64,000 bases of DNA from Impatiens glandulifera (taxonomy: Eukaryota > Streptophyta > Magnoliopsida > Ericales > Balsaminaceae): the NCBI RefSeq assembly GCF_907164915.1, contig NC_061863.1, positions 32,895,133 to 32,959,132 on the forward strand, in the 5' to 3' direction. The notes below the pieces were generated by a model. It was not told where the DNA came from. It worked only from the letters and a program-made list of their open reading frames with translations, and did no database searches. Positions within the stretch are counted from its first letter, which is position 1, and the number at the start of each line of letters is the position of its first letter. Position numbers and translations under genes: made by a program. Shown here piece after piece: positions 20,590-60,515 of the stretch.

Positions 20590-20749
20590 TGTTGGGTCAA
20601 ATTATTTTGACTAAGTATTGAAATAATTTACCCTCTGATATTTTTGATGATGAAATAATTTATGAGTTTTGATACAGGTGTATTGAGACAAGATGTCTTA
20701 AGACTTGGATCTAATGAGGGTCATTAGACCGATCTTGATTTTCATTCGT

Positions 20750-21965
20750 ATTAAATTAGACGCACAGTCTAACTCATCGGAGTTATACGTGCACTCTAAT
20801 AGACGTGTAATTAGACGGACGGTCTAATAGTTACACAGAATTAGACGTGAGTCTAATGGAATTAGACGTGAGTCTAATGGAATTAGACGTAAGTCTAATA
20901 TATTCAGAATTAGACTCACAGTCTAACTCATCGGAGTTAGACGTGTAAGTCTAATAGATGTGTAAATAATTAGACGCAAGTCTAATAAATACACGGAATT
21001 AGACGTAAGTCTAATAGAATTAGACGTACAAGTCTAACTCATCGGAGTTAGAGATGTAAGTCTTAATAGATGTAAAGAATTAGACGGATGGTCTAATGAA
21101 TACACGAAATTAGACGTAAGTCTAATGGAATTAGACGTACAGTCTAACTCATCGGAGTTAGACGTGTAAGTCTAATAGATGTAAAGAATTAGACGGATGG
21201 TCTAATGAATACATAGAATTAGACGTAAGTCTAATTTGAATTAGACATACAGTCTAACTCATCGGAGTTAGACGTGTAAGTCTAATAGATGTAAAGAATT
21301 AGACGCAAGTCTAATGAATACGTGGAATTAGACGTGAGTCTAATGGAATTAGATGTAAGTCTAATATATTCGGAATTAGACGTACAGTCTAACTCATCGG
21401 ACTTAGACGTGTAGTCTAATATATTTGTAATTAGACGGGTAGTCTAATTGAAACCAGAATTAGACGTGGCAGTCTAACTCAGTGGAGTTAGACGTGCCAG
21501 TCTAATGGTTATTGTAAAATTAGACGTGTGGTCTAATTAGTGAATGTTAGACGTGCGTCTAACTCCTTCAGACAAGTCTGAGGTAGAACCGGAATTAGAC
21601 GTGGCAATCTAACTCAGTAGAGTTAGACGTGCCAGTCTAATGGTTATTGTAAAATTAGACATGTGGTCTAATTAGTGAAAGTTAGACGTGCGTCTAACTC
21701 CTTCAGACAAATCTGAGGTAGAACCGGAATTAGACGTGGCAGTCTAACTCAATTGGAGTTAGACGTGCCAGTCTAATGGTTATTGCAATTAGACGGGTAG
21801 TCTAATTAGTGAAAGTTAGACGTGCGTCTAACTCCTTCAGACAAGTCTGAGGTAGAACTGGAATTAGACGTGTAGTCTAACTTAGTGGAGTTAGACGTAC
21901 CCGTCTAACTGTTATTGTAATTAGACGCGAGTCTAATTCTATTAGACCAGGCGGTCTAATAGATG
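20750..21965. repeat. TTAGAC...GTCTAA inverted-motif array (A, 5' LTR)
   Basis: Dozens of TTAGAC(G) and GTCTAA(T) hexamer/heptamers alternate, usually paired as small palindromes such as TTAGACGTAAGTCTAA or CTAACTCATCGGAGTTAG. Two higher-order patterns are visible: short 30-70-bp units at 20750-21430, and about 130-bp units at 21440-21960 containing CTCCTTCAGACAAGTCTGAGG and TGGTTATTG. The motif spacers vary while the hexamers are conserved. Confidence 0.95.
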
Positions 21966-22350
21966 TTTTTCATTAGAAGGAGTTGACCTATTTCAATAGA
22001 CTGATTTTTACAATCCGTCTAACTGAAATATGTCTAATGCTCAATTTAAGTAGTACGCTTGAATCTAGCATTTCTCCTACCCACGTGCTATAGCTGTACC
22101 CTACTTCTGCTCCACTTTCTTGTGAAGATTATTACAGCAGCTATATGCATCCAATCAAGGAATGCCACGTAAGGGAATTTTCCTCACATTACCCATTTTG
22201 CAGGTACATCCCTGATGGAATATTCGGCGCACTACCAGTTCTGTACGGCCACGATCCTTGTACTCAGACCCTACTGTGTACAATGGAGGCTTTCCAATGA
22301 AAGAGTGCCACGTATCATCCTTGAAGATTTGACCGTTAGCTCCTACTATG

Positions 22351-22357
22351 TATTTAA
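22351..22357 (+). promoter_or_regulatory. Candidate LTR TATA element (A)
   Basis: TATTTAA, followed by ACCAATCC. Element B keeps TATTTAATCAATCC at the equivalent place in both LTRs (minus strand, 57983-57989 and 48978-48984). Position between the motif array and the U5-like block suits the LTR promoter that would drive gag. Inference from conservation and position only. Confidence 0.45.
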
Positions 22358-22923
22358 CCAATCCTAAGGACAACGGACAATCTGCCTCACGAACAAGTTA
22401 ATACGAACGAACAAGCATTCTGATTTTGCAGAGAGAGAAACTAATCAATCATCTTGCTTACTGAACTTATTCTGTGAAGCTTCTTTCTGATTGTACTGTG
22501 TGTGAATTGAGAGAGAGAGCTAGAATCAAAACACCTTTAGCTGAGTGATATTCTTCATCTTGTAATTGAACAGAAAGTGTTCTGTTCAATAAGTGAGCTA
22601 AGTGTGTGTAAACTGTATTTGATTCTCATAATATTATAGTGAATCCTTCCGGTGGTTGGAAGAAGGGGTGACGTAGGAGAGTTTCTCCAAACATCCATAA
22701 ACAAACTGTTGTGTTATTCATTTCTGTCATCTTTTCATATTTCATCTTGTGCTTCAAACCCAAGTAAACAATTTCGCCTTGAATCTGTTTCAAGTGTTTA
22801 CACAAGTTTGCGTATAATAGAAAGCGAATCCAATCCCTAACAGGATTTATTTCAAACTGTTTTTCATAAGCCTTCATCCTTAGCTAGACCCCCGTCTCTA
22901 TCGATAAAGCCGATCCTATCAAT

Positions 22924-22935
22924 TGGTATCAGAGC
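22924..22935 (+). other. Primer-binding site, tRNA-iMet type (element A)
   Basis: TGGTATCAGAGC, two bases inside the 5' LTR end, complementary to initiator tRNA-Met. Confidence 0.95.
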
Positions 22936-22966
22936 CTTGTTTCTATTCTCAAGCCTTTCCTGAAAT

Positions 22967-24764
22967 ATGTCGAACATACCCAAAGATGCCAATGCTACAG
23001 CCATTCCAACATTCTCTCGTGAAAACTACATTGTTTGGAAGAAAAGAGTTCGTGCTCATCACTCTTCTCTTCATGATGACATGTGGAGTGTTGTCACAGA
23101 AGGTCCTATCAAGATTGATAAAGAAAAGTCCGACTGGACCGCTGATGAAAAGAGGCAGAATAACCTCAACAACATGGCTCTTGATGTTCTGTACAAATAT
23201 CTCGATGACAGTATGTTCAACTACATCATCGAATGTGACACTGCCAAAGAGGTCTGGGACAGACTCACTCAACTAGGTGAGGGCAACGAGCAAACCAAGG
23301 AAAACAAGATCATGGTTGCCACTCAACAGTTCGACAACTTCAAAATGCGTCCTGGTGAAACAATGAACGATTTCGACACCAGATTCAGCAAGATCGTCTC
23401 CTCTTTGTCCATCCTAGGAAAGACCTATAACAACTGGGAGCTTGCTATCAAGGTCATGCGTGCTCTTCCAAGAGAATGGGACATAAAGACTATAGCGATG
23501 AGAGAATCCAAAGATCTGAACAAGATCTCTCTCTTTGATCTCTTCGCTGATCTCAAGGCCTATGAGTTCGAGCTGAACTGTAGGATGGAAGAAGATCAAC
23601 CCTCGTCCGTTATTATTGCCAAGGCGTTGGTGACTGCTGAAGAGCCACCAACCGCTCTAGACGTGAAGATGGCAGCTCAGCAGCTGAGCAGCGATGCCAT
23701 GTCTCTCTTCGTGAAGAAGTTTGGCGACTTCATGAAGAAGAGCAACTCTAACTCAAATTCTTCAAATTCTAATGATAATAAAAAATCTAAAGCTAATGTT
23801 ACTTGTTTTAATTGTGGCATTAAAGGTCATTATGCATCGGAATGCCGGAAACCAAAGCGTGAAGATGCCAAGGAAGATGGAAAAGAGATGAAGGCTCTTA
23901 TGGCTGGTGATGGAAAGAACAGAGGAAGCAGCCGTGGTCTCGTACTTTTCATCCAGTGAAAGTGATGAAGAAGATGTGGCTTGCTTCATGGCCAGAGAAG
24001 ATGAGGAAGGAACTCAGGAGACTGAGGTATTTGATTTCTCTTTCGAAAGGTTTTCAAAGGAACAACTGATAGCTGCACTAGATGACATGGTCATCGAGTA
24101 CAGAAAGCTAGCAGAATCTCTAAAAGAAACTAAATCTTCATCAGATTTCAATGAACCAAATCTTCCTAAAGAGGAAGAGTCACATGTTCTTGAAAAGAAG
24201 ATTGAAGAGATCTCATCTGAAAATGAGATGCTCAAGGAACAGATTCAAACTCTTTCATCTGAAAACAAAAGGCTAAACTATGTTGTCTGTGCATGGACAA
24301 GGTCTGGTGATGCTGTCAAATATCAGATCAGCATGTTGAAACCTGCTGGATCTAGATCCGAATTGGGATTTGATAGCAATGATCCTAACAAGTCCTACAA
24401 AAAGTCAAAGCCAAATGACAAGTTTAAGCCTATAAACTTTGTCAAAGGAAGTATGAATGACAATGAATCTGATCTTATTCATGAAGAAGTTGCTTTCAAA
24501 AATGAAATAGTTTATGTTCCACCGACTGTTAGCTGGCTTAAGAATAAGCTATAAAAGGCTAATAAGTTTGGTAATCTAAAACCTGACTCTAAGTCAAGGA
24601 GTTTTAAAAGAAAATTTTCTTCAAAAGTTAAAGGATCAGTGGCTAGTAGGAAGTCATCTGCTAAGTCAAAATCTTATGCATTAATCACAACACAAAATGG
24701 GAAATCCATTAGAATAACTCAAATATGGATTCCTAAGGGACTAATTGATCGAGGACCCAATTAA
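22967..24764 (+). pseudogene. gag of element A (about 600 codons, one frameshift, one stop)
   Basis: Starts MSNIPKDANATAIPTFSREN, an N-terminal DUF4219-like segment (FSRENYIVWKKRVRAH), followed by a UBN2-type Gag domain (about residues 60-215: VWDRLTQLGEGNEQTKENK, MRPGETMNDFDTRFSKIV, ALPREWDIKT). A zinc knuckle CFNCGIKGHYASEC (CX2CX4HX4C) lies at about residue 285. An acidic stretch and a coiled-coil (about residues 350-430, LEKKIEEISSENEMLKEQI) follow, and a basic tail ends IRITQIWIPKGLIDRGPN. One extra base near 23938 (CGTGGTCTCGTAC versus the shorter form in B) shifts the frame, and a TAA at 24552 interrupts the tail; B keeps the open version of both sites. It would form the virus-like particle and bind element RNA. 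Confidence 0.92.
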
Positions 24765-25640
24765 GTATGGGTACTAAAATGTGTAAATAGTTTATTTTGT
24801 AGGTGATGTAGGAGGATAGCAGGAAGGAAGCTAGAAGAGTACTCCTCTGAGTACACAGCTTGGAAGATCAACCATGGCACTTGCCATTCTGGAAGAATAA
24901 ATGTTTTTATCTGTTAAAAATGTTTTTGGTCTTTGGACCACAAAAATTGTTTATAAAACTCTAATGTCCATATTCATTATGATAAGAAAACTTTCTTTGG
25001 AATTAAAGATATTCTCTGGACGAATATTCTTAATCGGTCTAATTAGACAAGGGTGTCTAAAAGAAACAGTATGTATTTAGACGTATTTTTGCTCACAATT
25101 CATACATCTAAGTCTATATGTTGAGGTTTTATACCTACGCAATTAGACGGACACGTCTAATAGACGTTAGACGTTTTTACGTCTTGAGCAAAAGGATGCT
25201 CACGTCTAATAAACACACGTCTAACACATGGTGTTTATGCAGAATTAGACGTACACGTCTAATAAACATTAGACGTACACGTCTAATAAACATTAGACGG
25301 ATTTGTTATAAACACGGAATTAGACGTATGCGTCTAATACACTCGTCCGTTTAATAGACGCTGTGTTATATTGGATTTGTGGAGTAAGAAAAACGTCTAA
25401 CTATGTGTCGATTAGACTGATCAAGGACAACTGTCCCACGTTGAGAGCTATCTGCTTTTCCCGCTCAAAACATTAAACAGTCATCTCTTAATAACATGAA
25501 GACACATGTCTATTAAGTTTAGAGAAAATGACTGATATACCCTCATTTTTTAATGACGATTTCTTGAAAAATGACGTCTAACATTTATTAATGGGCCATA
25601 CCCCTAGAATAGACGGTTATTATGTATCTCCATTTTTCAT
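24765..25640. other. Non-coding interval replacing pol (element A)
   Basis: Between gag and the aORF promoter no coding sequence is recognised. The interval has a counterpart in element B (54750-55578), including GGAGGATA..AGGAAGGAAGCTAGAAGAGTACTC and TGGTCTTTGGACCAC. In a complete copia element protease, integrase, RT and RNase H would occupy this place. Confidence 0.85.
25030..25425. repeat. TTAGAC...GTCTAA motif array upstream of aORF (A)
   Basis: About 20 copies of TTAGAC(G)/GTCTAA in both orientations, for example TTAGACGTACACGTCTAAT repeated around 25245-25290. Same motif as in the LTR but with different spacing and without the 130-bp unit. It lies 200-600 bp upstream of the aORF TATA box, and the equivalent array exists in element B. 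Confidence 0.9.
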
Positions 25641-25650
25641 CTATATAAGG
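25641..25650 (+). promoter_or_regulatory. Internal TATA box for aORF (element A)
   Basis: CTATATAAGG, a good plant TATA match, lies 120-129 bp before the aORF ATG. The intervening leader is C/T-rich and ATG-poor. Element B has CTATATATGG at the matching distance. Nothing else requires a TATA box here, so an independent aORF transcript is likely. Confidence 0.65.
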
Positions 25651-25769
25651 ACATTACTGCATGATTTTGAAAACTTTCAATCTCACGAAATCTCTAAGAA
25701 CCCTAGCTTTCTTGCATTTCTCTCACTAAATCTCTCTGAAATATCACGTCGATTCACATTCTCTCAAAA

Positions 25770-28700
25770 ATGGTGAAGAAAATCACTCTCGGTCACTGTA
25801 CTCTGCAGGTGGACTTTCCATCGGTGTATTCTTTTGATCAACCGGAGGTGGTGAAGATGTTCCAAACTCTAGAATATTCTAGGTTAAGGAAGTATCTGGG
25901 CGGACCTTTCATCTTCTATGAAGACGAAGTTTGCGAGTTCTTCAAGACAACAGTTATGGTAGATGACTCCATCGTAGCAACCGTTAACGGAAAGAAGATT
26001 TCTTTTGATGAAGCAGTTTATGCGGAGTTCTTTGAACTTCCGACGGAGGGTCATCTGTTTGACTTGGTGTTCCCTTCAGAAATCATGGAGGAAATGAAGA
26101 CCACTTTCTCTACAGACGGCTCTAAGATCCATGTGAATGGATACAAGAAGGTATTCAAACTCCACTTCATTCTTCTAAACGATGTGGTGGCGAAGGCGTT
26201 GCAAGGGAAGGCTGGCTCCTTCAATCTCTATAATCAAGACCGTTTTGACTATATGTGTGCCATTTCTAAAGGGATCCAGGTAAACTGGGCTCATACCTTG
26301 TTTCAGAATCTGTGTTACTCTATCAGCCAGACGAACAAGGAGAGTATCACATATGCGGCTCAACTGAGTCACCTGTTGAAGTACTTGGGGGTTCCCGTTG
26401 GTGAACCAGCGCAGATCAACTCTCCAAGAGTTTTTACTACTTTTACGGTGGCTAACACGCTGACGAGGTTGAAGAGCAACCTAGAGTCTACATCTAGTGC
26501 TTCTAGTTACCAGACAGGTGGAAAGCCTTCCACTCGATCAAAGCCCTCTGCTTCTGTTCTTTCAACAGGGGCAAAGAGAACCAAAACTGTGAACGAATCG
26601 GAGGCCAGTTCCTCCAATATGAAAAGTCCAAACAAGAAGAACTCCGAATCCGTTTATTCAAGGGTAAAGCAAGGTCCAAACGTACTTGTTGCAACCCCAA
26701 TGACATCGTTATTCACTCCCTCAACATATTTGAGGAAACCTTCTAGGTCATGTGCCTCAAAGGAGAAGAAGACTAAGGCGCCCCGCGCGTCTAAATATGC
26801 TAAGGTAAAGTCTTCTAAATCTTTGGCTGCTGTGCCAAAATTTGATGTTCCCTAAGTGGAACAAGCTGAATCTGTTTTCTCTCCTTTGAGAGAATCTGCT
26901 GAAGGGTCTGTTGTTGAGTCAGCCGGTCCAAATGATGAAACTGTTGACAGGGCTGAGTCTCATGTTATGCAATATGATCATGTAGCCGCCGGTGCTACAT
27001 AGTCGTCACAACCAGAACAAGGTGCTATTCTTACCCTTGTTTCTGGTGAACCCAACATTCCTGCTCCCAAATATTCCTTGGTGGTCGGAAAGATTGTTTG
27101 TAGAAAGCTTCTTGCTGAGTTCTGCTTGAAACCTCAATCTGCCTTTGAGCTGTTGCGGTCCAGAAAAGGGACAAAAAGATTTGTGATTGGTGAACCTAGA
27201 CCAGCTCCAAAACCCATAGAGGTTGTTGGAAAAGGAAAATTCATTGCAATTCAAGCTCCTAAGAAGGTATCTGAAGCAAGAGGCATCGTTGACCTTATTC
27301 TGGATCAAGTGAAAGGTCTCTCTGTTGAAAAGTTGGGAATATATGATTCCTGGTCCACTGAGAGGCTGTCTTCTAAATACAACGATTCTATGTCTAATGT
27401 TGTCATAGCAAAAAAATGGAAGAAGAGGGTGGAAAACGAAAAGAAAATCTTGAAATGGGCTAGAACTTCAGATGTGGGTGAAGCTCTGAATAAAAGAGAA
27501 CTGGTGGAAGCATGTATCCTTGGAAAAGCTCTCTTTCCAATTTATGCAGCCAGGAAAGCTAACTTCAACCCTGATGCAAAAGGAGCTGATGTTGAAGCAA
27601 AAGTGTTGAAAAAGTTGAATGATATCCTGGAAAGTTATGTCACTACTGCTTTTAGACATATTCATGGCGCCGATAGCTCTAGCGCGGAACCTCTCAACGA
27701 AGAAGAAGCAATGGATATTCCAGATGCTAATGAATTAGATGCTGCTCTCCTGATCGAATTTGGGAATCTTTCTGCCGAAGAGAGACGCATTCTAGATCAT
27801 CCTGTCCAAGGACTTTCGAATGAAGAAGAAGAAGTTGTGAATATTCAAGAGCCTGAACAAGCTCTTGAAACAAATAATGAAGAAGTCATCATAGAAGATG
27901 TGACTGAGGAGGCTTTGAAAGCTCCTATTGAAGAAGAAGTGATTTTAACCCCTGTTGCGACATAGGTTGTTCAAGAAAAACTGGCCGAGGTCACTCAGCC
28001 AGAGACTGCAAGAACTGAGGGGGAACCCTCAAAAGAGAAAGACAATGAAGAAGAAAGTTCTTCTTCTAAGGAGGAACAAGATGAGCAACCAACGTTTGTG
28101 AAGCTCCGCTTATTTCCCGATGGCGTTGTGGGAAGTGTTCATGAAAACATCAACATTCCCCGTCACTATTCTGGAAATTTGCTTTAAAGATTTGAAAGGG
28201 CATAAAAAGAAATTGAAGAAGAGGCACGAGAAAAAGCTGCTAAGAATGCTGAAATGAATCAGACGGAGCAATCCTTGCAGGTTCATACAAACTTTGAGCC
28301 TATTCAAAGTATGACAGCTGAATCTGAAGAAGTGTCGTCTCACGAAGAGTCATCTGCTGGAGGAAACAAAGTGCTAAGATCTATGAGGACTATGATCTCC
28401 TCAATTCAGAAGACCATGTGTCATACAATGAACTCCAAGGAAGAAGAAAGTGCGAATTTTGGCAATATCTTCAAGATCCTCACTGAGCTGGATAAAACCT
28501 TGAAAAAGAACACTTATGAGACTCACATTGCTAATGTAAACTTCTCAAAGTTTGAAAAGGATCTCTTCAGCCGTCAAAGTGAATTATTTGACATTGAGAG
28601 GCATATAACGATGAACGCCACAAGGAAACTTTGGATGAATTCAGTCTGGTGAAGAATCAGATGGTAGAAATGCAGGGTTGCATGAGCAGAAATGATAATG

Positions 28701-29107
28701 AACGTCAAGCATTTACTGAGACCATTGCTAGGAAGTTTCAAGCAAAGGAGGATGCAATGGCCAATGCTGAAGGTGCTCAACCTCGACCAATTCAAGGTGA
28801 GTCAAGCAGAAGGAATGATGGTGTGTCAACCGAGACAAGATCCAGGCGAGCTCCAAATTCTGATGACAATCCTAGGCCAACCAAGAGGGGTGGTGGTCGA
28901 AGCGTTGCTGAGCGTGGAGGTCGAAGTGGTAGCGGCCGGAGCAGGCTATCAAATGTTGATCAAGGTGGACGTGCAAGTGTTGCTGAACGTGGAGGAAGAT
29001 CAGGTGCAGCCGGTCGTGGTGGTCGAGGCTATCCTTCTTTCTTCAACATGCTTCCAGGGCAAGAGATGAGTCCAACCGATCCTCGAGTTAAAAGGGAAGA
29101 ACAATAA
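25770..29107 (+). pseudogene. Accessory gene aORF of element A (about 1,110 codons; putative plant-transposon-protein family)
   Basis: Starts MVKKITLGHCTLQVDFPSVY. Residues about 1-230 form the conserved domain shared with three copies in element C: an LxxFLxxPxIFYxxxVxEFF-like block, a TVNGKKISFDEAVYAEFFELPTEG block and a VNWAHTLFQNLCYSI block. This resembles the plant proteins annotated as putative transposon proteins and abundant in Lamiales; no enzymatic motif is seen. A Ser/Thr/Lys-rich linker follows, then a second conserved segment (27078-27680, VVGKIVCRKLLAEFCLKPQSA), an acidic Glu-rich region, a coiled-coil-like part (28360-28760) and an RGG/Gly-rich tail (28880-29040) ending FFNMLPGQEMSPTDP. 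Stops at 26853, about 27000 and 27963 and others at 28184-28205, plus a one-base deletion near 28605, break it. B retains a near-parallel copy. Confidence 0.85.
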
Positions 29108-29269
29108 TTTCTCTTCTTTTACTCTATTTTAATTTTATTAAACATGGTTTCTTGATGATTTCTCGAATACTGGTTTCTGGATGAATTATGTAAGTGAACA
29201 AAGTGTTTGTTTGTTTGTATGATGAATGCATGCTTTGATATATGTATGCAGGTCTACAATTTCTTCATC

Positions 29270-29283
29270 AAAAAGGGGGAAAT
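29270..29283 (+). other. Polypurine tract of element A
   Basis: AAAAAGGGGGAAAT directly before the 3' LTR start TGTTGGG. Primes plus-strand cDNA synthesis in LTR retrotransposons. The matching tract in B is at 51111-51124 on the minus strand. Confidence 0.9.
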
Positions 29284-29779
29284 TGTTGGGTCAAATTATT
29301 TTGACTAAGTGTTGAAATAATTTACCCTCTGATATTTTTTATGATGAAATAATTTATGAGTTTTGATACAGGTGTATTGAGACAAGATGTCTTAAGACTT
29401 GGATCTAATGAGGGTCATTAGACCGATCTTGATTTTCATTCGCATTAAATTAGACGCACAGTCTAACTCATCGGAGTTAGACGTGCGGTCTAATAGACGT
29501 GTAATTAGACGGACGGTCTAATAGTTACACGGAATTAGACGTAAGTCTAATATATTCGGAATTAGACGCACAGTATAACTCATCGGAGTTAGACGTGTAA
29601 GTCTAATAGATGTGTAAATAATTAGACGCAAGTCTAATAAATACACGGAATTAGACGTAAGTCTAATAGAATTAGATGTATAAGTCTAACTCATCGGAGT
29701 TAGACGTGTAAGTCTAATAGATGTAAAGAATTAGACGGATGGTCTAATAAATACACGGAATTAGACGTAAGTCTAATGG
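29284..29779 (+). repeat. 3' LTR of element A, truncated to 0.5 kb
   Basis: Identical in layout to the first 0.5 kb of the 5' LTR (20590 onward), including the start of the TTAGAC motif array (from about 29447). It stops inside the array at about 29779, where element C integrase sequence begins without a gap. About 1.8 kb of LTR is missing. Confidence 0.9.
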
Positions 29780-30319
29780 AATGGCCTGGCTGAGAGAAGA
29801 AACCGAACTCTCAAGGAAGCCGCGAGGTCTATGATAGCCGATTCAGGTGTTGCTCAAAAATTTTGGGCCGAAGCTATTAGTACTGCATGTTATACACAAA
29901 ACCGGTCTATGATTAACAAGCATCGCAATAAAACACCATATGAAGTATACTTTGATTGAGTAACTCACATTCAGTACTTTAGAAATTTCGGTTGTAAATG
30001 TTACATCCACATGAATGAAAAAACCTACTTAAATGCTTTTGATGTAAAATCTGATGTTGGGATAATGCTAGGATACTCAGCAGTTAGTAAGGCATATATA
30101 GTATATAATACTAGAACCTTAACTGTAGAAGAATCTCTTCATGTTGTATTCGATGAATCAATTGAAAATAACACTGCATCATCCTTTAATCTACACAACA
30201 AATTGGAAAATCAAAATATCCATTCTGATAGTGAAGATGAAATTCCAGTATTTAGACGGTTTGTCCATGACCAAATGGGTATTGTTGAAACCCAGCCGGA
30301 TCAAGCTGCCAAACAATAG
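29780..30319 (+). pseudogene. Copia integrase, C-terminal part (element C)
   Basis: The frame opens with NGLAERRNRTLKEAARSMI, which contains the third catalytic residue (Glu) of the copia integrase DDE core, then FWAEAISTACYTQNRSMINK, HRNKTPYEVYFD, and GCKCYIHMNEKTYLNAFDVKSDVGIMLGYS, typical of the copia integrase C-terminal region. A stop (TGA) replaces a codon near 29958. Upstream catalytic Asp residues and the HHCC region are gone with the deletion at the A/C junction. Confidence 0.9.
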
Positions 30320-33395: not shown

Positions 33396-33766
33396 GGAAC
33401 CATCTTTTTGGACAACTGGTCATTTTGTTGCATGCACCGATTATATATTTTTAATTATGTTGATCTTTTGTGTGTTTCTCTTGTTTTCCTGTGATACTAC
33501 TTCACATCGGTCTAATATATTACATACTCTTATTTTATCTACTCTTGGCATATTAAATTCTAATTGCATAAAAACTACAAAACATTAAATTCAGTTAGTT
33601 CTCAACTAGATTCTCCACCTCGGACCAGTCAAAAACTCTCACTTTCCAAGAAATATGTTTTGAAAACATAAATATTCCTCTTACCTTAAAGCATTGATAG
33701 GACATCTCATAAATGACAAAATCCTATAATAAATGCCCTTATGTTATCCTTCTCTCTTCTACATCC

Positions 33767-33774: not shown

Positions 33775-33859
33775 GAGCCTCACACTTTCTTTCACAACTC
33801 ACAATACATCTTGCAAGATCTCAAAGAACACAACCTCCCTCTCTAAGCACATTCTGAAA

Positions 33860-48388: not shown

Positions 48389-48415
48389 TGCTAGTGTATA
48401 TAATATAATATATTA
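48389..48415 (+). repeat. 3' LTR of element E, left piece
   Basis: TGCTAGTGTATATAATATAA, matching the 5' LTR start, then interrupted by element B. The right piece resumes at 60516. Confidence 0.75.
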
Positions 48416-51110
48416 TGATAGGATCGGCTTTATCAATAGAGACGGGGGTCTGGCTAATGATGAAGGCTTATGAAAAACAGTTTGATAGAAATCCTGTTAG
48501 GGATTAATATCTCTTTCTATTCTACGCAAACTTGTGTAAACACTTGAAACAGATTCAAGGCGGAATTGTTTACTTGGGTTTGAAGCACAAGATGAAATAT
48601 GAAAAGATGACAGAAAAGAACACAGCAGTTTGTTTATGGATGTTCGGAGAAACTCTCCTACGTCACCCCTTCTTCCAACCACCGGAAGGATTCACTATAT
48701 GATGAGAATCAAATACAGTTTACACACACACTTAGCTCACTATTGAATAGAACATTTTCTGTTCAAATTCAAGAAGATGAAGAATATCACTCAGCTAATG
48801 GTGTTTTGATTCTAGTCTCTCTCTCGATTCACACACAGTACAATCAGAAAGAAGCTTCACAAAATAACTTCAGTAAGCAAAGTGATTGAGTAATCTCTCT
48901 CTGCAAAAATGAGAATGCTTGTTCGTAAGATTGGTTAAGGCAAGATCTGGTGCTTCGTCCGTTGCTCTAAGGATTGATTAAATACTGAGCAAGAGCTAAT
49001 GGTCGAATCTTCAAGAATGATACGTGGCGCTCTTTCATTGGAAAGCCTCGATTGTACACAGCAGGTTCTAAGCACAAGGATCGTGGCCGTACCGAACTGG
49101 TAGTGCGCCGAATATTCCATCAGAGATGTACCTGCAAAAAGGATGATGTGTGGAAAATTCTCTTACGTGGCATTCCTTGATTGGATGCATATATCTGTTG
49201 TACTAATCTTCACAGGAAAGTGGAGCAGGAGTAGGGTACAACTATAGCACGTGGGTAGGAGAAATGCTAGATTCAAGCGTACTGCTTTAACAGAGCATTA
49301 GACGTATTTCAGTTAGACGGAATTGAAAAAATCAGTCTAATGAAAAAAGTCAACTCCTTCTAACGAAAAGCGTCTAATAGACCACCTGGTCTAATATAAT
49401 TAGACTAGCGTCTAATTTACATAACCATTAGACGGGTACGTCTAACTCCACTGAATTAGACTACACGTCTAATTCCGGTTCTACCTCAGACTAATCTGAA
49501 GGAGTTAGACTCACGTCTAACTTTCACTAATTGGATAACCCGTCTAATTAAAATAACCATTAGACCGACACGTCTAACTCCACTAAGTTAGAATGCCTCG
49601 TCTAATTGTGGTTCTACCTCAGACTAATTTGAAGGAGTTAGACTCACGTCTAACTTTCACTAATTAGACAACCCATCTAATTAAAATAACCATTAGACCG
49701 GCACGTCTAACTCCACTGAGTTAGACTGCCCCGTCTAATTCCGGTTCTACCTCAGACTAATCTGAAGAAGTTAGACTCACGTCTAACTTTCACTAATTAG
49801 ACAACCCGTCTAATTAAAATAACCATTTGACCGGCACGTCTAACTCCACTGAGTTAGACTGCCCCATCTAATTCCGGTTCTACCTCAAACTAATCTGAAG
49901 GAGTTAGACTCACGTCTAACTTTCACTAATTGGATAACCCGTCTAATTAAAATAACCATTAGACCGGCACGTCTAACTCCACTAAGTTAGACTGCCTCGT
50001 CTAATTCTGGTTCTACCTCAGACTAATCTGAAGGAGTTAGACTCACGTCTAACTTTCACTAATTAGACAACCTGTCTAATTAAAATAACCATTAGACCGG
50101 CACGTCTAACTCCACTGAGTTAGACTGCCCCGTCTAATTCCGGTTCTACCTCAGACTAATCTGAAGGAGTTAGACTCACGTCTAACTTTCACTAATTAGA
50201 CAACCCGTCTAATTAAAATAACAATTTGACCGGCACGTCTAACTCCACTGAGTTAGACTGCCCCGTCTAATTCCGATTCTACCTCAGGCTAATTTGAAGG
50301 AGTTAGACTCACGTCTAACTTTCACTAATTAGACAACCCGTCTAATTAAAATAATCGTTAGACCGACACGTCTAACTCCACTGAGTTAGACTGCCCCGTC
50401 TAATTCCGGTTCTACCTCAGACTAATCTGAAGGAGTTAGACTCACGTCTAACTTTCACTAATTAGACAACCCGTCTAATTAAAATAACCATTAGACCGGT
50501 ACGTCTAACTCCACTGAGTTAGACTGCCCCATCTAATTCCGTTCTAACTCAAACTAATCTGAAGGAGTTAGACTCACGTCTAACTTTCACTAATTAGACA
50601 ACCCGTCTAATTAAAATAACCATTAGACCGACACGTCTAACTCCACTGAGTTAGACTGCCACGTCTAATTCCGCGTATTCATTAGACCATCCGTCTAATT
50701 TTTTACGTCTATTAGACTTACACGTGTAACTCCGATGAGTTAGATTGTACGTCTAATTTTATTAGACTCACGTCTAATTCCGCGTATTCATTAGACTACC
50801 CGTCTAATTCTTTACACATCTATTAGACTTACACGTCTAACTCCGATGAGTTAGAGTGTACGTCTAATTCTATTAGACTCACGTCTAATTCATGCGTCTA
50901 TTAGACTGCCCGTCTAACTCCGTTGAGTTAGACTGTGCGTCTAATTCTTATGCGAATGAAAATCAAGATCGGTCTAATGACCCTCATTAGATCCAAGTCT
51001 GATAACATGTTGTCTTAATACACCTGTATCAAAACTCATAAATTATTTCATCATTAAAATATTAGTGGGTAAATTATTTCAACACTTAGTCAAAATAATT
51101 TGACCCAACA
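48416..51110 (-). repeat. 3' LTR of element B (2.70 kb)
   Basis: Bounded by TGATAGGATC and GACCCAACA on the plus strand, i.e. TGTTGGGTC...GATCCTATCA on the element strand. Holds the TTAGAC array (49290-50960), a TATTTAA-type TATA (48978-48984) and the U5-like block (48640-48690). About 400 bp shorter than the 5' LTR because it has about three fewer 133-bp units. Confidence 0.95.
49290..50960. repeat. TTAGAC...GTCTAA array, B 3' LTR (about nine 133-bp units)
   Basis: Higher-order units of 130-134 bp each begin around TTCTACCTCAGACTAATCTG (near 49484, 49615, 49747, 49880, 50012, 50146, 50278, 50410 and 50540). Each unit has about eight to ten TTAGAC/GTCTAA hexamers and paired palindromes such as CTAACTCCACTGAGTTAG. 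A different, shorter-spaced motif block follows at 50660-50960, matching the A LTR start. Confidence 0.95.
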
Positions 51111-51124
51111 ATTTCCCCCTTTTT
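51111..51124 (-). other. Polypurine tract of element B
   Basis: On the element strand CAAAAAGGGGGAAAT directly before the LTR, identical in form to that of A. Confidence 0.9.
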
Positions 51125-51287: not shown

Positions 51288-54200
51288 TCATTGTTCTTCC
51301 CTTTTTACTCGAGGATCGGTTGGACTCATTTCTTGCGCGGGAAGCATGTTCATGAAATGAGGATAGCCGCGACCACCACGACCTCCTGCATTCGATCTTC
51401 CTCCACGCTCAACAACACTTCCACGTCCACCTTGATCAACATTGGACAACTTACCTCGGCCGCCACCACTTCTACCACCACGCTCAGAACCACTTCGACC
51501 ACCACCTCTCTTGGTTGGCCTAGGATTGTCATCAGAAATTGGGCCCTCTTGGATCTGGTCCCGGTTGACACACCATCATTCCTCCTGCTTGACTCACCTT
51601 GAGTTGATCGAGGTTGAGCATTTTCAGCATTGCCCAAGGCATCCTCCTTAGCTTGAAACTTTCTGGCAAGGTTCTCGGCAAAAGCTTGTCGTTCATTGTC
51701 ATTTTTGTTCATGCATCCTTGCATTTCTACCAGCTGATTCTTCACCAAACAGAGTTCATCCAAGGTTTCCTTGTGGCGTTCGTCATTGATGTGCCTCTCA
51801 ATGTCAAATAGTTCACTTTGGTGGTTGAAGCTTTTATGTTGAAATTTTGAAAACTTTACATTCGAGACATGGGTCTCATACGTATTCATCTTCAGGGTCT
51901 TATCCAACTCAGTTAGGATCTTGAACATGTTGCTGAAATTCGCTCTTTCCTCTTCCCTGGAGATCATTGACTGACACATAGTCTTCTGCATTGAGGAAAT
52001 CATAGACCTCATAGATCTTAACATTTTATTTCCTCCAGCGGATGGACCTTCGTGAGAAGACACTTCTTCAGACTCTGCAGCCATACTTTGAATAGGCTCA
52101 AAGTTTGTATGAACCTGCAAGGATTGCTCAGGCTGAATAACTTCAGCATCCTTAGCCGCTTTCTCTTGTGCCTCTTCATCGTCAACTTCTCTTTTGGCCT
52201 TTTCAAATCTTTCGAGCAAACTTCCAGAATAGTGACGGGGAGTGGTTATGTTTTCTTGAACACTTCCAGAAATAGATAGGTCTTAACAAACTTTGGTTGC
52301 CCATCCTGTTCCTCCTTAGAAGAGGAACTTTCTTCTTCATCACCTTTTTCTTTAGAGGGTTCCCCCTCAGTTCTTGCTGTCTCTGGCTGAGTTACCTCGG
52401 CCAATTTCCCTTGAGCACCCTCTGTTCTCGCAACAGGGGTTACCAGCACATTTTCTTCAATAGGAGCTTTTGAAGCCTCCTCAGTTACACCTTCCAAGAT
52501 TACTTCTTCAACATTTATCTCAAGAGCTTGTTCAGGCTCTTGAACATTCACCATTTCTTCATCTTTATTAGGAAGCTCTTGAATAGGATGATCTTGAATG
52601 CGCCTCTCTTCGGCAGAAATATTCCCGAATTCGATCAGGAGAGCAGCATCTGATTTATCAGCGTTTGGGATGTCCATTGTCTCTTCTTCGTTGAGCCGTT
52701 CTACGCCAGAACAATCGGCGCCATGAATGTATCTGGAAGCAGCAAAAACATAGCTTTCCATGACATCATTCAACTTCTTCAGCACTTTGACCTCAACATC
52801 AGCTCCTTTTGCGTCAGGATTTGAAGTTTGCTTTCCTGGCTTCATAGATTGGAAACAGGACTTTTCCAAGAATGCAAGATTCCACCAGTTCTCTTTTGTT
52901 CAACGCTTCACCCACATCTGAAGTTCTTGTCCACTTCAGAACTTTCTTCTCATTTGCTACTCTCTTCTTCCATTCTTTTGAGATGGCAGCATTGGACAAA
53001 GAGTCGTTGTACTTAGATGACAGCCTCTCAGTACGCCAGGAATCATAAATTTCTAGTTTTTCAGAGGAGAGAACTTTTACTTGATCCAGAATGAGATCAA
53101 CAATACCTCTTGCTTCAGATACCTTCTCAGGAGCCTGAAACGCAATGGACTTACCTTTTCCAACAACCTCTACAGGTTTTGGAGATGGTCTTGGTTCACC
53201 AATAACAATTCCTTGTGTCCCTTTCCTGGCCCGCAACAGTTCGAAGGCCTATTGAAGTTTCAAACAGAGCTCAGCAGGAAGCTCTCTACAAACAATTTTT
53301 CCGACTACCAAGGAATCCTTGGGAGAAGGAATGAAGGGTTCACCAGCAACAATGGTAGAAACAACACCTTGTTCTGGTATAGACGACTCTATAGCACCGA
53401 CGGCTACCTAATTAGATTGAGTAACAGGGGACTTCGCCCTGTTAATAGATTCAACATTTGGACCGACTGACTCAACAACAGGCCCTTCAGCAGATTCTCT
53501 CAGGGGAGAGAAAACAGATTCAGCTTGTTCCACTTCAGGAACAACAAATTTTGGCACAGCAGCCAAATACTTAGAAGATGTTACCTTAGCGGATTTAGAC
53601 GCGCGGGGCGCCTTTTTTTCTTCTCCTTTGAGGAACAAGACCTCGAAGGTTTCCTCAAGAAGGTTGAGGGAGTATATAATGATGTCATCGGGGTTGCAGC
53701 AAGTACTCCTGGACCTTTCTTCACCCTTGAGTCGATAGATTCCGTGTCCTTCTAACTTGGACTTTTCATGCTGGAGGAACTGACCTCCGATTCATTTACA
53801 GTTCTGGTTCTCTTTGCCCCTGTTAACATGATAGAGGCAAAAGGCTTTGATCGGGTTGAAGGCCTTCCACCAGTCTGGAAACTAGAGGTCCCAGATGTAG
53901 ACTCTAAGTTGCTCTTCACCCACAACAGAGTGCTGGCCACCGTAGAGGCAGTAAAAACTCTTGCAGAGTTAATCTGCGCCAATTCACCAACAGGAACCCC
54001 TAAAAACTTCAACAGGTGGCTCAGTTGAGCCGCATAGGTGATACTCTCCTTGTTCGTCTGACAAATAGAGTAACAGAGATTCTGAAACAAGGTATGACCC
54101 CAGTTCACTTGGATTCCTTTGGAGATCGCGCACATATAGTCAAATCGGTCTTGACTGTAGAGGTTGAACGAGCCAGACTTCCCTTGCAGCGCCTTCGCCA

Positions 54201-54618
54201 CCACGTCATTTAGAAGAATAAAGTGGGGTTTGAATACCTTCTTATATCCATTCACATGGATTTTAGAACCATCAGCAAAGAAGGAAGTCTTCATTTCCTC
54301 CATGATTTCAGAAGAGAGCACCAAATCGAACAGATGACCCTCTGTTGGAAGTTCAAAGAACTCTGCATACACCGCTTCGTCAATAGAGATCTCTTTTCCG
54401 TTGACGGTTGCTACGATGGAATCATCCACCATAACCGCCGTCTTGAAAAACTCACGAACTTCATCTTCATAGAAGATGAACGGTCCGTCAAGATACTTCC
54501 TCAACCCAGAATATTCTAGGGTTTGGAACATCTTCACCACCTTCGGCTGATCAAAGGAGTACACCGATGGAAAGTCCACCTGCAAAGTACAGTGACCGAG
54601 CGTGATTTTCTTCACCAT
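51288..54618 (-). pseudogene. Accessory gene aORF of element B (about 1,110 codons)
   Basis: The chosen start is the ATG giving MVKKITLGHCTLQVDFPSVY, as in A, although the frame is open upstream to 54726. The first 289 codons of this frame are intact (to 53752), covering the N-terminal domain (LRKYLDGPFIFYEDEVREFF, VNWGHTLFQNLCYSI). Later parts are in several frames: the VVGKGKSIAFQAPEKVSEAR segment, an acidic region, a coiled-coil-like part (about 51600-52100) and the Gly/Arg-rich tail, ending NMLPAQEMSPTDP. A and B are colinear throughout, so the two help define each other's lesions. Function unknown; RGG-type tails commonly bind RNA in other proteins. Confidence 0.87.
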
Positions 54619-54736
54619 TTTGAGAGAATATGAATCGATACGATATCTCAAAGAGTTTTTGTGAGAGAAATGAAAGAAAACTAGGGTTCTTAGAGATTTC
54701 GAGAGATTGAAAGTTTTCAAAATCATGAAGGAATGT

Positions 54737-54748
54737 CCATATATAGAT
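54737..54748 (-). promoter_or_regulatory. Internal TATA box for aORF (element B)
   Basis: On the minus strand CATCTATATATGG, about 125 bp upstream of the aORF ATG, equivalent to CTATATAAGG in A. Confidence 0.62.
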
Positions 54749-54959
54749 GAGAAATGGAAATACTGAATAACCGTCTAGTCTAGGGGTATGTCCCATTAAT
54801 AAATGTTAGACATCATTTTTCAAGAAGTAATCATTAAAAATGAGGGTATATTAGCCATTTTCCTTAAACTTGATAGACACGTGTCTTCATGTTATTAAGA
54901 GATGACTGTTCGATATTTTGAGCGGAAAAGTAGATAGCTCTCAGCGTGTGACAACTGTC

Positions 54960-55320
54960 CCTGATCAGTCTAATCGGCAAGTAGTTAGACGTTTTTATTA
55001 CTTCACAAATAACACAACGTCTATTAGACGGATGAGTGTATTAGACGCATACGTCTAATTCCGTGTTTATAACAAATCCGTCTAATGTTTATTAGACGTG
55101 TACGTCTAATTCCGCATAAACACCACGTGTTAGACGTGAGCATCCTTTTGCTCAAGACATAAAAACGTCTAACGTCTATTAGACGTGTCCGTCTAATTGC
55201 GTGGATATAAAATCCCAACATATAGACTTAGATGTATGGATTGTGAATAAAAATACGTCTAAGTACATGCCTTTTCTTTTAGACAACCTTGTCTAATTAG
55301 ACCGATTAAGGATATTCGTC
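54960..55320. repeat. TTAGAC...GTCTAA array upstream of aORF (B)
   Basis: About 20 motif copies in both orientations at the same place as the 25030-25425 array of A, for example CATACGTCTAATTCCGTGTT and TTAGACGTGTACGTCTAAT. Lies in the interval between gag and the aORF promoter. Confidence 0.9.
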
Positions 55321-55578
55321 TAGAGAATATCTTTAATTCCAAAGAAATTTTCCTTCTCAAAAAAATGAGTATGGACAAAAGAGTTTTATAAACAATTTTT
55401 GTGGTCCAAAGACCAAAAATATTTTTAACAAATAAAAAAAAATTAATCTTCCAGAATGGCAAGTGCCATTGTTGATCTTCCAAACTGTCTACTCAGATGA
55501 GTACTCTTCTAGCTTCCTTCCAGTTATCCTCCTGCATCACCTATAAAATAAACTATTTACAAATCTTGGTACCCATAC
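55321..55578. other. Non-coding interval downstream of gag (element B)
   Basis: Colinear with 24765-25030 of A. No pol sequence. Confidence 0.8.
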
Positions 55579-57374
55579 TCAATTGGGTCCTCGATCAATT
55601 AGTCCCTTAGGAATCCATATTTGAGTTATTCTAATGGACTTCCCATTTTGTGTTGTGATTAATGCATAAGATTTTGACTTAGCAGATGACTTCCTGCTAG
55701 CCACTAATCCTTTGACTTTTGAAGAAGGTTTTCTTTTAAAACTCCTTGACTTAGAGTCAGGTTTTAAGTTACCATACTTATTAGCCTTTTCAAGCTTATT
55801 CTTAAGCCAGCTAACAGTTGGTGGAACATAAACTATTTCATTTTTTAAAGCAACTTCTTCATGAATAGGATCAGATTCAATGTCAGTCATACTTTCTTTG
55901 ACAAAACTTATTGGCTTAAGTTTGTGAATTGGCTTTGACTTTTTGCAGGACAGGTTAGGATCATTGCTATCAAATCCCAATCCGGATCTAGATCCAGCAG
56001 GTTTCAACATGCTGATTTGATATTTGACAGCATCACCAGACCTTGTTCATGCACAGACAACATATTTAAGCCTTTTGTTTTCAGATGAAAGAGTTTGAAT
56101 CTGTTTTTGAGCATCTCATTTTCAGATGAGATTTCTTCAATTTTCTTTTCAAAAGCATGTGATTCTTTTTCTTTAGTCAGATTTGGTTTATTTAAATCTG
56201 ATGAAGATTTAGTTTCATTTAGAGATTCTGCTAGCTTTCTGTACTCGATGACCATTTCATCTAGTGCAGCTACCAGTTGTTCCCTTGAAAACTTTTTGGA
56301 GGAGAAATCAAATACCTCAGTTTCCTGAGTTCATTCCTCATCTTCTCTGGCCATGAAGCAAGCCACGTCTTCTTCATCGCTTTCACTGGATGAGAAGTAC
56401 GGGCCATGGCTGCTTCCTCTGCTCTTTCCGTCACCGGCCATAAGAGCCTTCAGCTCTTTTCCATCTTCCTTTGCATCTTCACGCTTTTGCTTCCGGCATT
56501 CCGATGCATAATGACATTTAATACCACAGTTAAAACAAGTAACATTAGCTTTAGATTTTTTATTATCATTAGAATTTGAAGAGTTTGAGTTAGAGTTGCT
56601 CTTCTTCATGAACTCGCCAAACTTCTTCACAAAGAGAGACATGGCATCGCTGCTCAGCTGCTGAGCTGCCATCTTCACGTCCGGAGCAGTTGGTGGCTCT
56701 TCAGCAGTCACCAACGCCTTGGCAATAATAACGGACGAGGGTTGATCTTCTTCCATCCTACAGTTCAGCTCGAACTCATAGGCCTTGAGGTCAGCGAAGA
56801 GATCAAAGAGAGAGATCTTGTTCAGATCTTTGGATTCTCTCATCGCCATAGTCTTTATGTCCCATTCCCTTGGAAGTGCACGCATGACCTTGATAGCAAG
56901 CTCCCGGTTTCTATAGGTCTTGCCTAAGATGGACAGAGAGGAGACGATCTTGCTGAATCTGGTGTCGAAATCGTTCATTGTTTCACCAGGACGCATTTTG
57001 AAGCTGTCGAACTGTTGAGTGGCAACCATGATCTTGTTTTCCTTGGTTTGCTCGTTGCCCTCACACAGTTGAGTGAGTCTGTCCCAGACCTCTTTGGCAG
57101 TGTCACATTCGATGATGTAGTTGAACATACTATCATCGAGAGATCTGTACAGAACATCAAGAGCCATGTTGTTGAGGTTGTTCTGCCTCTTTTCATCAGC
57201 AGTCAAGTCGGCCTTCTTCTTATCAATCTTGATAAGACCTTCTGTGACAACACTCCACATGTCATCATGAAGAGATGAGAGATGAGCACGAACCCTTTTC
57301 TTCCAAACAATATAGTTTTCACGAGAAAAAGTTGGAATGGCTGTAGCACTGACATCTTTGGGTATGTTTGACAT
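55579..57374 (-). pseudogene. gag of element B (about 600 codons)
   Basis: Starts MSNIPKDVSATAIPTFSREN at 57374. The UBN2-type domain and the motifs listed for A are conserved. The zinc knuckle reads CFNCGIKCHYASEC, with Cys replacing Gly before the His; metal-binding spacing is kept. A nonsense change (TGA for GGA) at about 56331-56333 and frameshifts near 56040 and 56255 break the C-terminal part; the tail ITQIWIPKGLIDRGPN is intact. The first about 348 codons are open, better preserved than the rest. Confidence 0.92.
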
Positions 57375-57405
57375 ATTCCAGGAGAGGCTTGAGAATAGAA
57401 ACAAG

Positions 57406-57417
57406 GCTCTGATACCA
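57406..57417 (-). other. Primer-binding site, tRNA-iMet type (element B)
   Basis: On the minus strand TGGTATCAGAGC, two bases inside the 5' LTR. Confidence 0.95.
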
Positions 57418-57419
57418 AT

Positions 57420-60400
57420 TGATAGGATCGGCTTTATCAATAGAGACGGGGGTTTGGCTAATGATGAAGGCTTATGAAAAACGGTTTGATAGAAATCCTG
57501 TTAGGGATTAATATCTCTTTCTATTCTACGCAAACTTGTGTAAACACTTGAAACAGATTTAAGGAGAAATTGTTTACTTGGGTTTGAAGCACAAGATGAA
57601 ATATGAAAAGATGACAAAAGAAGAACACAACAGTTTGTTTATGGATGTTCGAAGAAACTCTCCTACGTCACCCCTTCTTCCAACTATCGGAAGGATTCAC
57701 TATATGATGAGAATCAAATACAGTTTACACACACACTTAGCTCACTATTGAACATAACACTTTCTGTTCAATTACAAGAAGATGAAGAATATCACTCAGC
57801 TAATGGTGTTTTGATTCTAGCTCTCTCTCTCGATTCACACACAGTACAATCAGAAAGAAGCTTCACAAAATAACTTTAGTAAGCAAAGTGATTGAGCAGT
57901 CTCTCTCTGCAAAATCAGAATGCTTGTTCGTAAGATTGGTTAAGGCAAGATCCGGTGCTTCGTCCGTTGCTCTAAGGATTGATTAAATACTGAGCAGGAG
58001 CTAACGGTCGAATCTTCAAGAATGATACGTGGCGCTCTTTCATTAGAAAGCCTCCATTGTACACAGCAGGTTCTGAGTACAAGGATCGTGGCCGTACCGA
58101 ACTGGTAGTGCGCCAAATATTCCATCAGAGATGTACCTGCAAAACGGGTAATGTGAGGAAAATTCTCTTACGTGGCATTCCTTGATTGGATGCATATAGC
58201 TCTTGTAATAATCTTCACAGGAAAGTGGAGCAGAAGTAGGGTACAGCTATAGCACGTGGGTAGGAGAAATGTTAGATTCAAGTGTACTACTTGAATAGAG
58301 CATTAGACGTATTTCAGTTAGACGGATTTGGAAAAATCTGTCTAATGAAATAAGTCAACTCCTTCTAATGAAAAGCGTCTATTAGACCGCCTGGTCTAAT
58401 ATAATTAGATTCGCGTCTAATTTACATAACCATTAGACGGGTACGTCTAATTCCACTGACTTAGACTACACGTCTAATTCTGGTTCTACCTCAGACTAAT
58501 CTGAAGGAGTTAGACTCACGTCTAACTTTCACTAATTAGACAACCCGTCTAATTAAAATAACCATTAGACCGGCACGTCTAACTCCACTGAGTTAGACTG
58601 CCCCGTCTATTTCCGGTTCTACCTCAGACTAATCTAAAGGAGTTAGACTCACGTCTAACTTTCACTAATTAGACAACCCGTCTAATTAAAATAACCATTA
58701 GACCGACACGTCTAACTCCACTGAGTTAGATTGCCCCGTCTAATTCCGGTTCTACCTCAGACTAATCTGAAGGAGTTAGACTCACGTCTAACTTTCACTA
58801 ATTAGACACCCCGTCTAATTAAAATAACCATTAGACCGACACGTCTAACTCCACTGAGTTAGACTGCCCCGTCTAATTCCGGTTCTACCTCAGACTAATC
58901 TGAAGGAGTTAGACTCACGTCTAACTTTCACTAATTAGACAACCCGTCTAATTAAAATAATCATTAGACCGACACGTCTAACTCCAATGAGTTAGACTAC
59001 CCCGTCTAATTCTGGTTCTACCTTAGACTAATCTGAAGGAGTTAGACTCACGTCTAACTTTCACTAATTAGACAACCCATCTAATTAAAATAATCATTAG
59101 ACCGGCACGTATAACTCCAATGAGCTAGACTGCCCCGTCTAATTCTGGTTCTACCTCAGACTAATTTGAAGGAGTTAGACTCACGTCTAACTTTTACTAA
59201 TTAGACAACCCGTCTAATTAAAATAACCATTAGACCGACACGTCTAACTCCACTGAGTTAGACTGCCCCGTCTAATTCCGGTTCTACCTCAGACTAATCT
59301 GAAGGAGTTAGACTCACGTCTAACTTTCACTAATTAGACAACCCGTCTAATTAAAATAACCATTAGACTGACACGTCTAACTCCACTGAGTTAGACTACC
59401 CCGTCTAATTCCGGTTCTACCTCAGACTAATCTGAAGGAGTTAGACTCACGTCTAACTTTCACTAATTACACAACCCGTCTAATTAAAATAATCATTAGA
59501 CCGGCACGTCTAACTCCAATGAGTTAGACTGCCCCGTCTAATTCTGGTTCTACCTCAGACTAATCTGAAGGAGTTAGACTCACGTCTAACTTTCACTAAT
59601 TAGACAACCCGTCTAATTAAAATAACCATTAGACTGACACGTCTAACTCCACTGAGTTAGACTGCCCCGTCTAATTCCGGTTCTACCTCAGACTAATCTG
59701 AAAGAGTTAGACTCACGTCTAACTTTCACTAATTATACAACCCGTCTAATTAAAATAATCATTAGACCGGCACGTCTAACTCCAATGAGTTAGACTGCCC
59801 CGTCTAATTCTGGTTCTACCTCAGACTAATCTGAAGGAGTTAGACTCACGTCTAACTTTCACTAATTAGACAACCCGTCTAATTAAAATATCCATTAGAG
59901 CGACACGTCTAACTCCACTGAGTTAGACTGCCCCGTCTAATTCCGGTAATACCTCAGACTAATCTGTAGGAGTTAGACTCACGTCTAACTTTCACTAATT
60001 AGACAACCCGTCTAATTAAAATAACCATTAGACCGGCACGTCTAACTCCACTGAGTTAGACTGCCACGTCTAATTTCGCGTATTCATTAGACCATCCGTC
60101 TAATTCTTTACGTCTATTAGACTTACACGTCTAACTTCGATGAGTTAGACTGTACGTCTAATTCTATTAGACTCACGTCTAATTCCGCGTATTCATTAGA
60201 CTACCCGTCTAATTCTTTACACATCTATTAGACTTACACGTCTAACTCCGATGAGTTAGACTGTACGTCTAATTCTATTAGACTCACGTCTAATTCATGC
60301 GTCTATTAGACTGCCCGTCTAACTCCGTTGGATTAGACTGTGCGTCTAATTCTTATGCGAATGAAAATCAAGATCGGTCTAATAGCCCTCATTAGATCCA

Positions 60401-60515
60401 AGTCTGATAACATGTTGTCTTAATACACCTGTATCAAAACTCATAAATTATTTCATCATCAAAATATCAGTGGGTAAATTATTTCAACACTTAGTCAAAA
60501 TAATTTGACCCAATA
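57420..60515 (-). repeat. 5' LTR of element B (3.10 kb)
   Basis: Same borders as the left LTR except that the terminal CA (plus-strand reading) has become TA (CCCAATA at 60509-60515). The remainder aligns closely. Candidate TATA on the minus strand at 57983-57989; U5-like block at about 57641-57690. Confidence 0.95.
58300..60360. repeat. TTAGAC...GTCTAA array, B 5' LTR (about twelve 133-bp units)
   Basis: Units begin near TTCTACCTCAGACTAATCTG at about 58484, 58615, 58748, 58880, 59014, 59147, 59281, 59414, 59547, 59681, 59814 and 59947. Unit-to-unit identity is high, with recurring variants such as CCACTGAGTTAG versus CCAATGAGTTAG and AATAACC versus AATAATC, showing an alternating pattern consistent with two-unit amplification. 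Confidence 0.95.

Follow-up and report, generated by a model that had tools for sequence, protein, structure and literature searches.

Two pol-less insertions of a probable Sirevirus-like Ty1/copia retrotransposon, with gag and a gene in the place of env, in Impatiens glandulifera

The DNA analysed here (the window) comprises 64,000 nucleotides of Impatiens glandulifera (assembly GCF_907164915.1, contig NC_061863.1, positions 32,895,133 to 32,959,132, forward strand) and consists of plant DNA with nested retrotransposons. Two of the insertions, A and B, belong to one long terminal repeat (LTR) element and have no detectable pol. They are very probably pol-less copies of a Sirevirus-like Ty1/copia element, which kept gag, a large additional open reading frame (aORF) in the place of env, and the ends for priming and integration, and which likely spread on borrowed pol enzymes. 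As an earlier note on this DNA had described, the order in both copies is LTR, primer site, gag, an interval of ~1 kb, aORF, polypurine tract (PPT), and LTR. The limits of the elements were set by self-comparison and by reading of the ends, and the features are as follows.

20590-29780, plus strand: element A, an LTR element with incomplete 3' LTR
20590-22921, plus strand: A 5' LTR, TG...CA; palindrome array from 134 to 1448 bp into the LTR
22922-22935, plus strand: A ATTGG spacer and TATCAGAGC primer site (tRNA-Met; pattern of PMC2829016)
22967-24764, plus strand: A gag, with copia-type gag domain, zinc knuckle and long C-terminal part
24765-25769, plus strand: A interval without pol, 1,005 bp; palindromes at 25043-25337
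25770-29107, plus strand: A aORF, ~1,112 codons; PF20167-like N-terminal match below cut-off
29274-29283, plus strand: A PPT AGGGGGAA followed by AT (tract itself at 29274-29281)
29284-29780, plus strand: A 3' LTR, broken off after ~497 bp and followed by the integrase of element C
60516-60520, minus strand: B target-site duplication TAATA, 5' side
60515-48416, minus strand: element B, 12.1 kb
57420-60515, minus strand: B 5' LTR, starting with TA (TG in the B 3' LTR); palindrome array as 133-bp units
55579-57374, minus strand: B gag, with two premature stops and one frameshift; natural stop common to A
54619-55578, minus strand: B pol-less interval, 960 bp, colinear with that of A; four palindromes
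51288-54618, minus strand: B aORF, with three premature stops and several frameshifts; natural stop common to A
51111-51120, minus strand: B PPT AGGGGGAA followed by AT (tract itself at 51120-51113)
48416-51110, minus strand: B 3' LTR
48411-48415, minus strand: B target-site duplication TAATA, 3' side

The gag-aORF interval is colinear between the two copies, and the internal regions align end to end with the largest gap of 24 bp. For pol, the window was searched by tblastn (expectation value, E, up to 10) with 22 queries, namely 18 pol parts of relatives and 4 pieces of C, the element that holds A. Of the 175 rows returned, 28 fall in A and 20 in B, with best E values of 1.5 and 0.32, respectively, in agreement with the absence of protease, integrase and reverse transcriptase (RT) claimed before. 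The same 22 queries detected other copia remains in the window (at 46 kb, E down to 5e-12), and the decayed pol of C was found by the polyproteins of relatives with E down to 2e-110 (an E of 0 at 31 kb is C matching itself). The observation of two pol-less insertions of one LTR element is confirmed.

The distance (Kimura two-parameter, K2P) between the two LTRs is 0.029 within A (457 sites) and 0.047 within B, whereas A and B, compared over the last ~980 bp of their LTRs, are 0.088-0.103 apart. The flanks of A and B differ as well, thus the two copies are not duplicates of one insertion. A 5-bp TAATA (minus strand) is present on both sides of B (the chance of a 5-mer match in these AT-rich flanks is 0.4%), while A retains only 497 of ~2,330 bp of its 3' LTR, which ends at ~29780, and so offers no target-site duplication to test. 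The window yielded no clear paralogue of the empty site of B. A segmental duplication of a single insertion, named in the earlier note as one of the findings that would overturn its proposal, agrees with the common family and the common window of A and B, but it is refuted by the unlike flanks and the LTR distances, and is opposed by B's own target-site duplication; we give it practically no chance.

Dating by LTR divergence, as proposed in that note, places both insertions after the common ancestor of A and B. Since the same pol-less junction and the colinear interval occur in both, the sequences support a loss of pol before the A-B split, with a junction older than either insertion and a pol-less form that moved at least twice. 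With the rate of 1.3e-8 changes per site per year (rice), A would be ~1 and B ~2 million years old.

The coding regions carry a signature of purifying selection. The ratio of nonsynonymous to synonymous divergence (dN/dS) between A and B is 0.18 for the gag core (95% interval 0.10-0.32), 0.26 for the whole gag (0.17-0.40) and 0.21 for aORF (0.17-0.25), while the out-of-frame control, with aORF shifted by one base, gives 0.82. In the correct frame, gag of B is identical to that of A at 302 of 323 residues. The dN of the gag core is 0.029, compared with ~0.038 (half of the sum of the A and B LTR-LTR distances) expected from post-insertion decay alone.

The two genes differ clearly in the level of divergence. 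The dS of gag is 0.15 and that of aORF 0.47, and third-position differences are found in 56 of 597 gag codons versus 255 of 1,103 aORF codons (Fisher p 4e-13). For silent and non-coding sites taken together (434 differences at 2,876 sites), the rate rises from 0.090 to 0.229 at position 25829 (range 25701-25934), that is at the aORF start (chi-square 105.6; none of 2,000 permutations is as high, the largest being 24.5). The distance remains high in the 3' tail (0.22 over 175 sites) and then drops within the LTR, whose first 160 bp show 0.05-0.07. A and B are thus mosaics, with the LTR, gag and interval derived mostly from a young ancestor, and with older aORF and 3' tail. The mosaic likely arose by template switching before insertion, which would itself need RT from elsewhere.

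Alternatively, LTR, gag and interval could owe their low divergence to local gene conversion between A and B in place, rather than to recombination before insertion. In favor of this, the two copies are inverted repeats in one window, with 22-39 kb between matching arms (among the 25 longest pairs). Conversion should bring the converted LTRs closer, but over their last ~980 bp the 5' LTRs of A and B are separated by 0.088, more than the two LTRs of B (0.051). On these LTR distances we reject conversion, and consider it very unlikely.

The earlier note held that the family kept both gag and aORF because they help its spread. For gag the data agree with this: it lies in the young module together with the junction, so its selection falls in the pol-less phase, and purifying selection on gag during that phase is supported by the dN and dN/dS values given above. 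For aORF the claim holds only in part. Its ratio is also low, but the dS of 0.47, against 0.15 in gag, means that part of the selection may date from pol-bearing carriers. The same observation favors a passive parasite, i.e. a family that needs none of its own proteins and whose dN/dS signal was inherited from a pol-bearing ancestor, as the aORF divergence predates the common pol-less junction and both copies are broken today. Such inheritance does not fit with gag, which belongs, like the junction, to the younger 5' module and yet shows dN/dS of 0.18 and a dN no higher than post-insertion decay would give, and we regard the passive parasite as unlikely. Selection on gag after the loss of pol is the reading retained here.

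The affinity to Sirevirus comes from the signals at the ends and from the repeats. The hallmarks used are those described in the consulted parts of PMC2829016 (Bousios 2010). As judged from the nucleotide sequence, most of the cis-signals tested in A and B match them. The 5' junction CA/ATTGG/TATCAGAGC is exact in both copies. The Sirevirus PPT, AGGGGGAG followed by AT/TG, is present in both as AGGGGGAA-AT/TG, a variant reported in the same source for ToRTL1 and Tnd-1. A poly-C integrase signal occurs ~20 bp from the LTR end (compared with the description in the paper, not with its alignment figure). Palindromic repeats are found in the upper LTR (38-53 per LTR) and upstream of the env place (5 in the interval of A, 4 in that of B). 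This hallmark is present in 13 of the 21 elements of PMC2829016, with up to 32 palindromes per element compared with the 38-53 per LTR of our count, and extra repeats are tied there to the presence of env. The palindrome TTAGACGTnnnnGTCTAA, allowing for at most one mismatch on both strands, has 82 matches in the window versus 0.02 expected, and all of them lie within A or B.

The upper LTRs of A and B are composed largely of a short imperfect palindrome, whose spacers have 4, 5 or 6 bases in 27, 30 and 34 cases, respectively (A and B 5' LTRs). The observed/expected ratio of CpG is 1.37 in the LTR array of A and 1.88 in its interval repeats, versus 0.61 in the rest of that LTR, at G+C of only 36-37%. 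As RNA, the array would fold into dense hairpins (z score -19.8 over 571 nt; -7.4 for the interval and -1.3 for another part of the LTR). A strong fold is expected of any inverted-repeat array, and no function is claimed for it.

Between the palindromes of the interval and the aORF, a TATA box is found, TATATAAG at 128 bp 5' of the aORF start in A and TATATATG at 127 bp in B. Counting also the three aORF-like genes of element C (C1-C3), TATAWA is present between -140 and -60 relative to the start in four of five cases (A, B, C1 and C3, not C2), with a chance of ~5-11% for each, A and B not being independent. With extra palindromes and a TATA box ahead of the gene, aORF occupies the env place of Sireviruses and probably has its own promoter. 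Grande is a recorded case of an aORF with a separate promoter (by the title of a reference in PMC11963269).

The gag gene has the copia-type domain PF14223 (80.8 bits in A and 82.7 bits in B, cut-off 27), and its frame, counted across indels up to the stop present in both copies, has ~600 codons. A zinc knuckle was detected in A, and the C-terminal part of A gag gives a leucine-zipper-like match below threshold. Among the 41 gag relatives found, mostly from Primulina and Henckelia, 24 have at least one pol-type Pfam domain beyond gag (PF22936, PF13976, PF00665, PF25597 or PF07727, which we take to be pol-type) and 17 have none; this gag lineage therefore includes pol-bearing members. In the gag tree, read without the row of B, A groups with P0041 of Impatiens glandulifera. 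The aORF (~1,112 codons up to the stop common to A and B) resembles PF20167 (Transposase_32) in its N-terminal part, with scores of 18.0 (A), 24.3 (B) and 24.4 (C3) bits, all below the gathering score of 45. The same family is matched by the additional ORF of Athila in sunflower, according to the part of PMC11728184 consulted. The protein relatives of aORF are three Impatiens glandulifera proteins (67-69% identical over 32-44% of the query), and a homologue search with the aORF alignment returned nothing beyond them. The AlphaFold2 model of its N-terminal part, from 4 sequences, has a mean predicted local distance difference test score (pLDDT) of 34.8. In one annotated protein of Impatiens glandulifera, P0003, an aORF-like stretch is fused to PF00808, presumably a histone-fold family; this is perhaps a fusion made by gene prediction.

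In the cycle that we propose, genomic RNA and Gag would both be expressed from the LTR, and the element's own Gag would package that RNA. Protease, RT and integrase were likely borrowed from a pol-bearing Sirevirus. With these helper enzymes, DNA synthesis would be primed at the primer site and the PPT, and integration would proceed through the AT/TG and CA/ATTGG ends. For aORF we predict expression from a separate promoter, formed by the palindromes and TATA box just 5' of the gene, and aORF with the 3' tail was likely swapped between co-packaged RNAs by template switching. A bolder version is a split retrotransposon genome. In it, the structural genes, gag and an aORF equipped with a separate promoter, would reside on RNA of the A/B type and pol on other RNAs, and co-packaged partners would exchange aORF cassettes. 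The pol-less members would then provide Gag and aORF protein for the whole community instead of being mere parasites; this we hold to be decidedly unlikely.

The earlier note had pointed to the lineage of C, which surrounds A, as a candidate helper. Its parts are the following.

19111-20589, plus strand: C, broken gag up to the position of A
29780-32091, plus strand: C, integrase end, RT and RNase H, broken
32646-37242, plus strand: C, three tandem aORF-like genes (starts 32646, 33860 and 34930), broken; the middle one judged by eye

The gag of C stops at 20589, approximately where protease should begin, hence A sits inside C. A later deletion would have taken the rest of the A 3' LTR together with part of the protease-integrase region of C. 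Unlike A and B, with one aORF, C seems to have three tandem aORF-like genes after RNase H; the identity to A aORF is 34-35% for C1 and 28% for C3, and C2 shares the motif by eye only. The direct repeats at 15276-16435 and 39401-40582 are 73% alike and are probably the LTRs of C, with GGGAGAT/TG before the second, and C would be old. In the 5' region of C, a self-complementary stretch (17329-18332, 79% over ~1 kb) is perhaps an inverted-repeat transposon.

As a helper, C would offer its pol remains, its aORF-like genes and the GGGAGAT/TG junction at the start of its probable 3' LTR. However, its gag is 53% identical to that of A (over 175 residues), no closer than those of other sources (P0004, 53%; P0005, 49%), its pol is broken, and its probable LTRs have no match to those of A or B at E 1e-10 and 150 bp. 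The proposal has thus weakened, and we consider it quite unlikely that the helper came from the lineage of C. A close relationship of C to A and B is rejected on the same gag comparison; C is a dead, distant relative of A and B.

Several observations weigh against a Sirevirus-like, formerly mobile, pol-less family. Gag and aORF are broken in both copies, so any activity lies in the past: in A, gag has a 1-nt insertion at 23937 and a premature stop at 24552 (natural stop at 24762), and aORF is interrupted by five premature stops and a frameshift before its natural stop at 29105. No helper element with matching LTRs was found. The palindromes of A and B are devoid of the CGG-CCG core, which is also absent from those of Tnd-1 (PMC2829016). 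Clustered identical PPTs near the 3' LTR were not observed; each copy has two octamers, one terminal and one inside aORF, 1.3 kb away. A mid-LTR TATA box was likewise not seen, as there is no TATAWA in the A 5' and B 3' LTRs, and among the three LTRs checked the only TATA-like site is a weak one with two mismatches in the B 5' LTR; two published members also have no LTR TATA box in PMC2829016. The inverted repeat around the PPT/3' LTR junction covers 11 of 13 bases in A and 13 of 15 in B, with 25 of 200 shuffles as good (A only), and is absent from three published members of the same source. The young module is uneven in divergence, with values of 0.18-0.19 in one 200-bp stretch of the LTR and of 0.12-0.13 over the final 430 bp of the interval. 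Finally, two copies cannot split the selection on aORF into the periods before and after the loss of pol.

A pol-less, gag-bearing way of life is already known in plants; in A and B, gag is joined by an aORF in the place of env in a Sirevirus-like copia element. The earlier note had compared the family with TR-GAG elements, one of which was seen to transpose in ddm1 (in the consulted text of PMC8704663). These also have gag without pol and LTRs with primer site and PPT. They differ in having gag as the single ORF, whereas A and B contain an aORF of ~1,112 codons under purifying selection, and in size, with a median of 4.8 kb in PlantLTRdb (consulted part of PMC10025401) versus 12.1 kb for B with its second large gene. 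From the parts of the sources compared, two other systems are nearer. By structure, these are the pol-less Athila families of Arabidopsis (Marco and Marin 2008, PMC2410132), which have LTRs, gag and an env-like gene without pol, as do A and B in two insertions. Whole Athila families are non-autonomous, with purifying selection (dN/dS ~0.2-0.4) and with gag and env swapped between lineages by recombination, similarly to A and B. Athila is, however, Ty3/gypsy and known from many copies, whereas A and B are Ty1/copia (gag PF14223) with Sirevirus signals and known here from two. By lineage, the nearest is barley RLC_Giselle (PMC5738225), a copia family whose gag is potentially intact and which has neither RT nor integrase, with RLC_Inga as its proposed partner; it is from a monocot, and the text compared mentions no additional ORF. 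PMC2829016 includes an element named Inga, corresponding to RLC_Inga by name, among its Sireviruses with ENV. The env-bearing Sireviruses of that paper have gag/pol, unlike A and B, and the consulted parts of the open-access literature searched showed no Sirevirus in which gag and a gene at the position of env occur without pol.

New here are the Sirevirus-type signals with the palindrome array in pol-less copies, the purifying selection on gag and aORF, and the mosaic divergence. If our interpretation is true, the pol-less gag-plus-env life extends from Athila (Ty3/gypsy) to Sirevirus-like Ty1/copia of a different group of plants, where there is evidence that gag remained selected after the loss of pol and that aORF is exchanged by recombination as a unit. 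Whether such elements are cheats or contributors then becomes testable in a genome with many copies.

Elsewhere in the window, a tandem array of 88-bp units occupies 12237-14007 (G/C strand skew -0.68 over 12001-14000) and adjoins a decayed element, gypsy-like by eye. The direct repeats at 1-1184 and 5552-6721, 95% alike and spaced by ~5.55 kb, surround AT-rich DNA.

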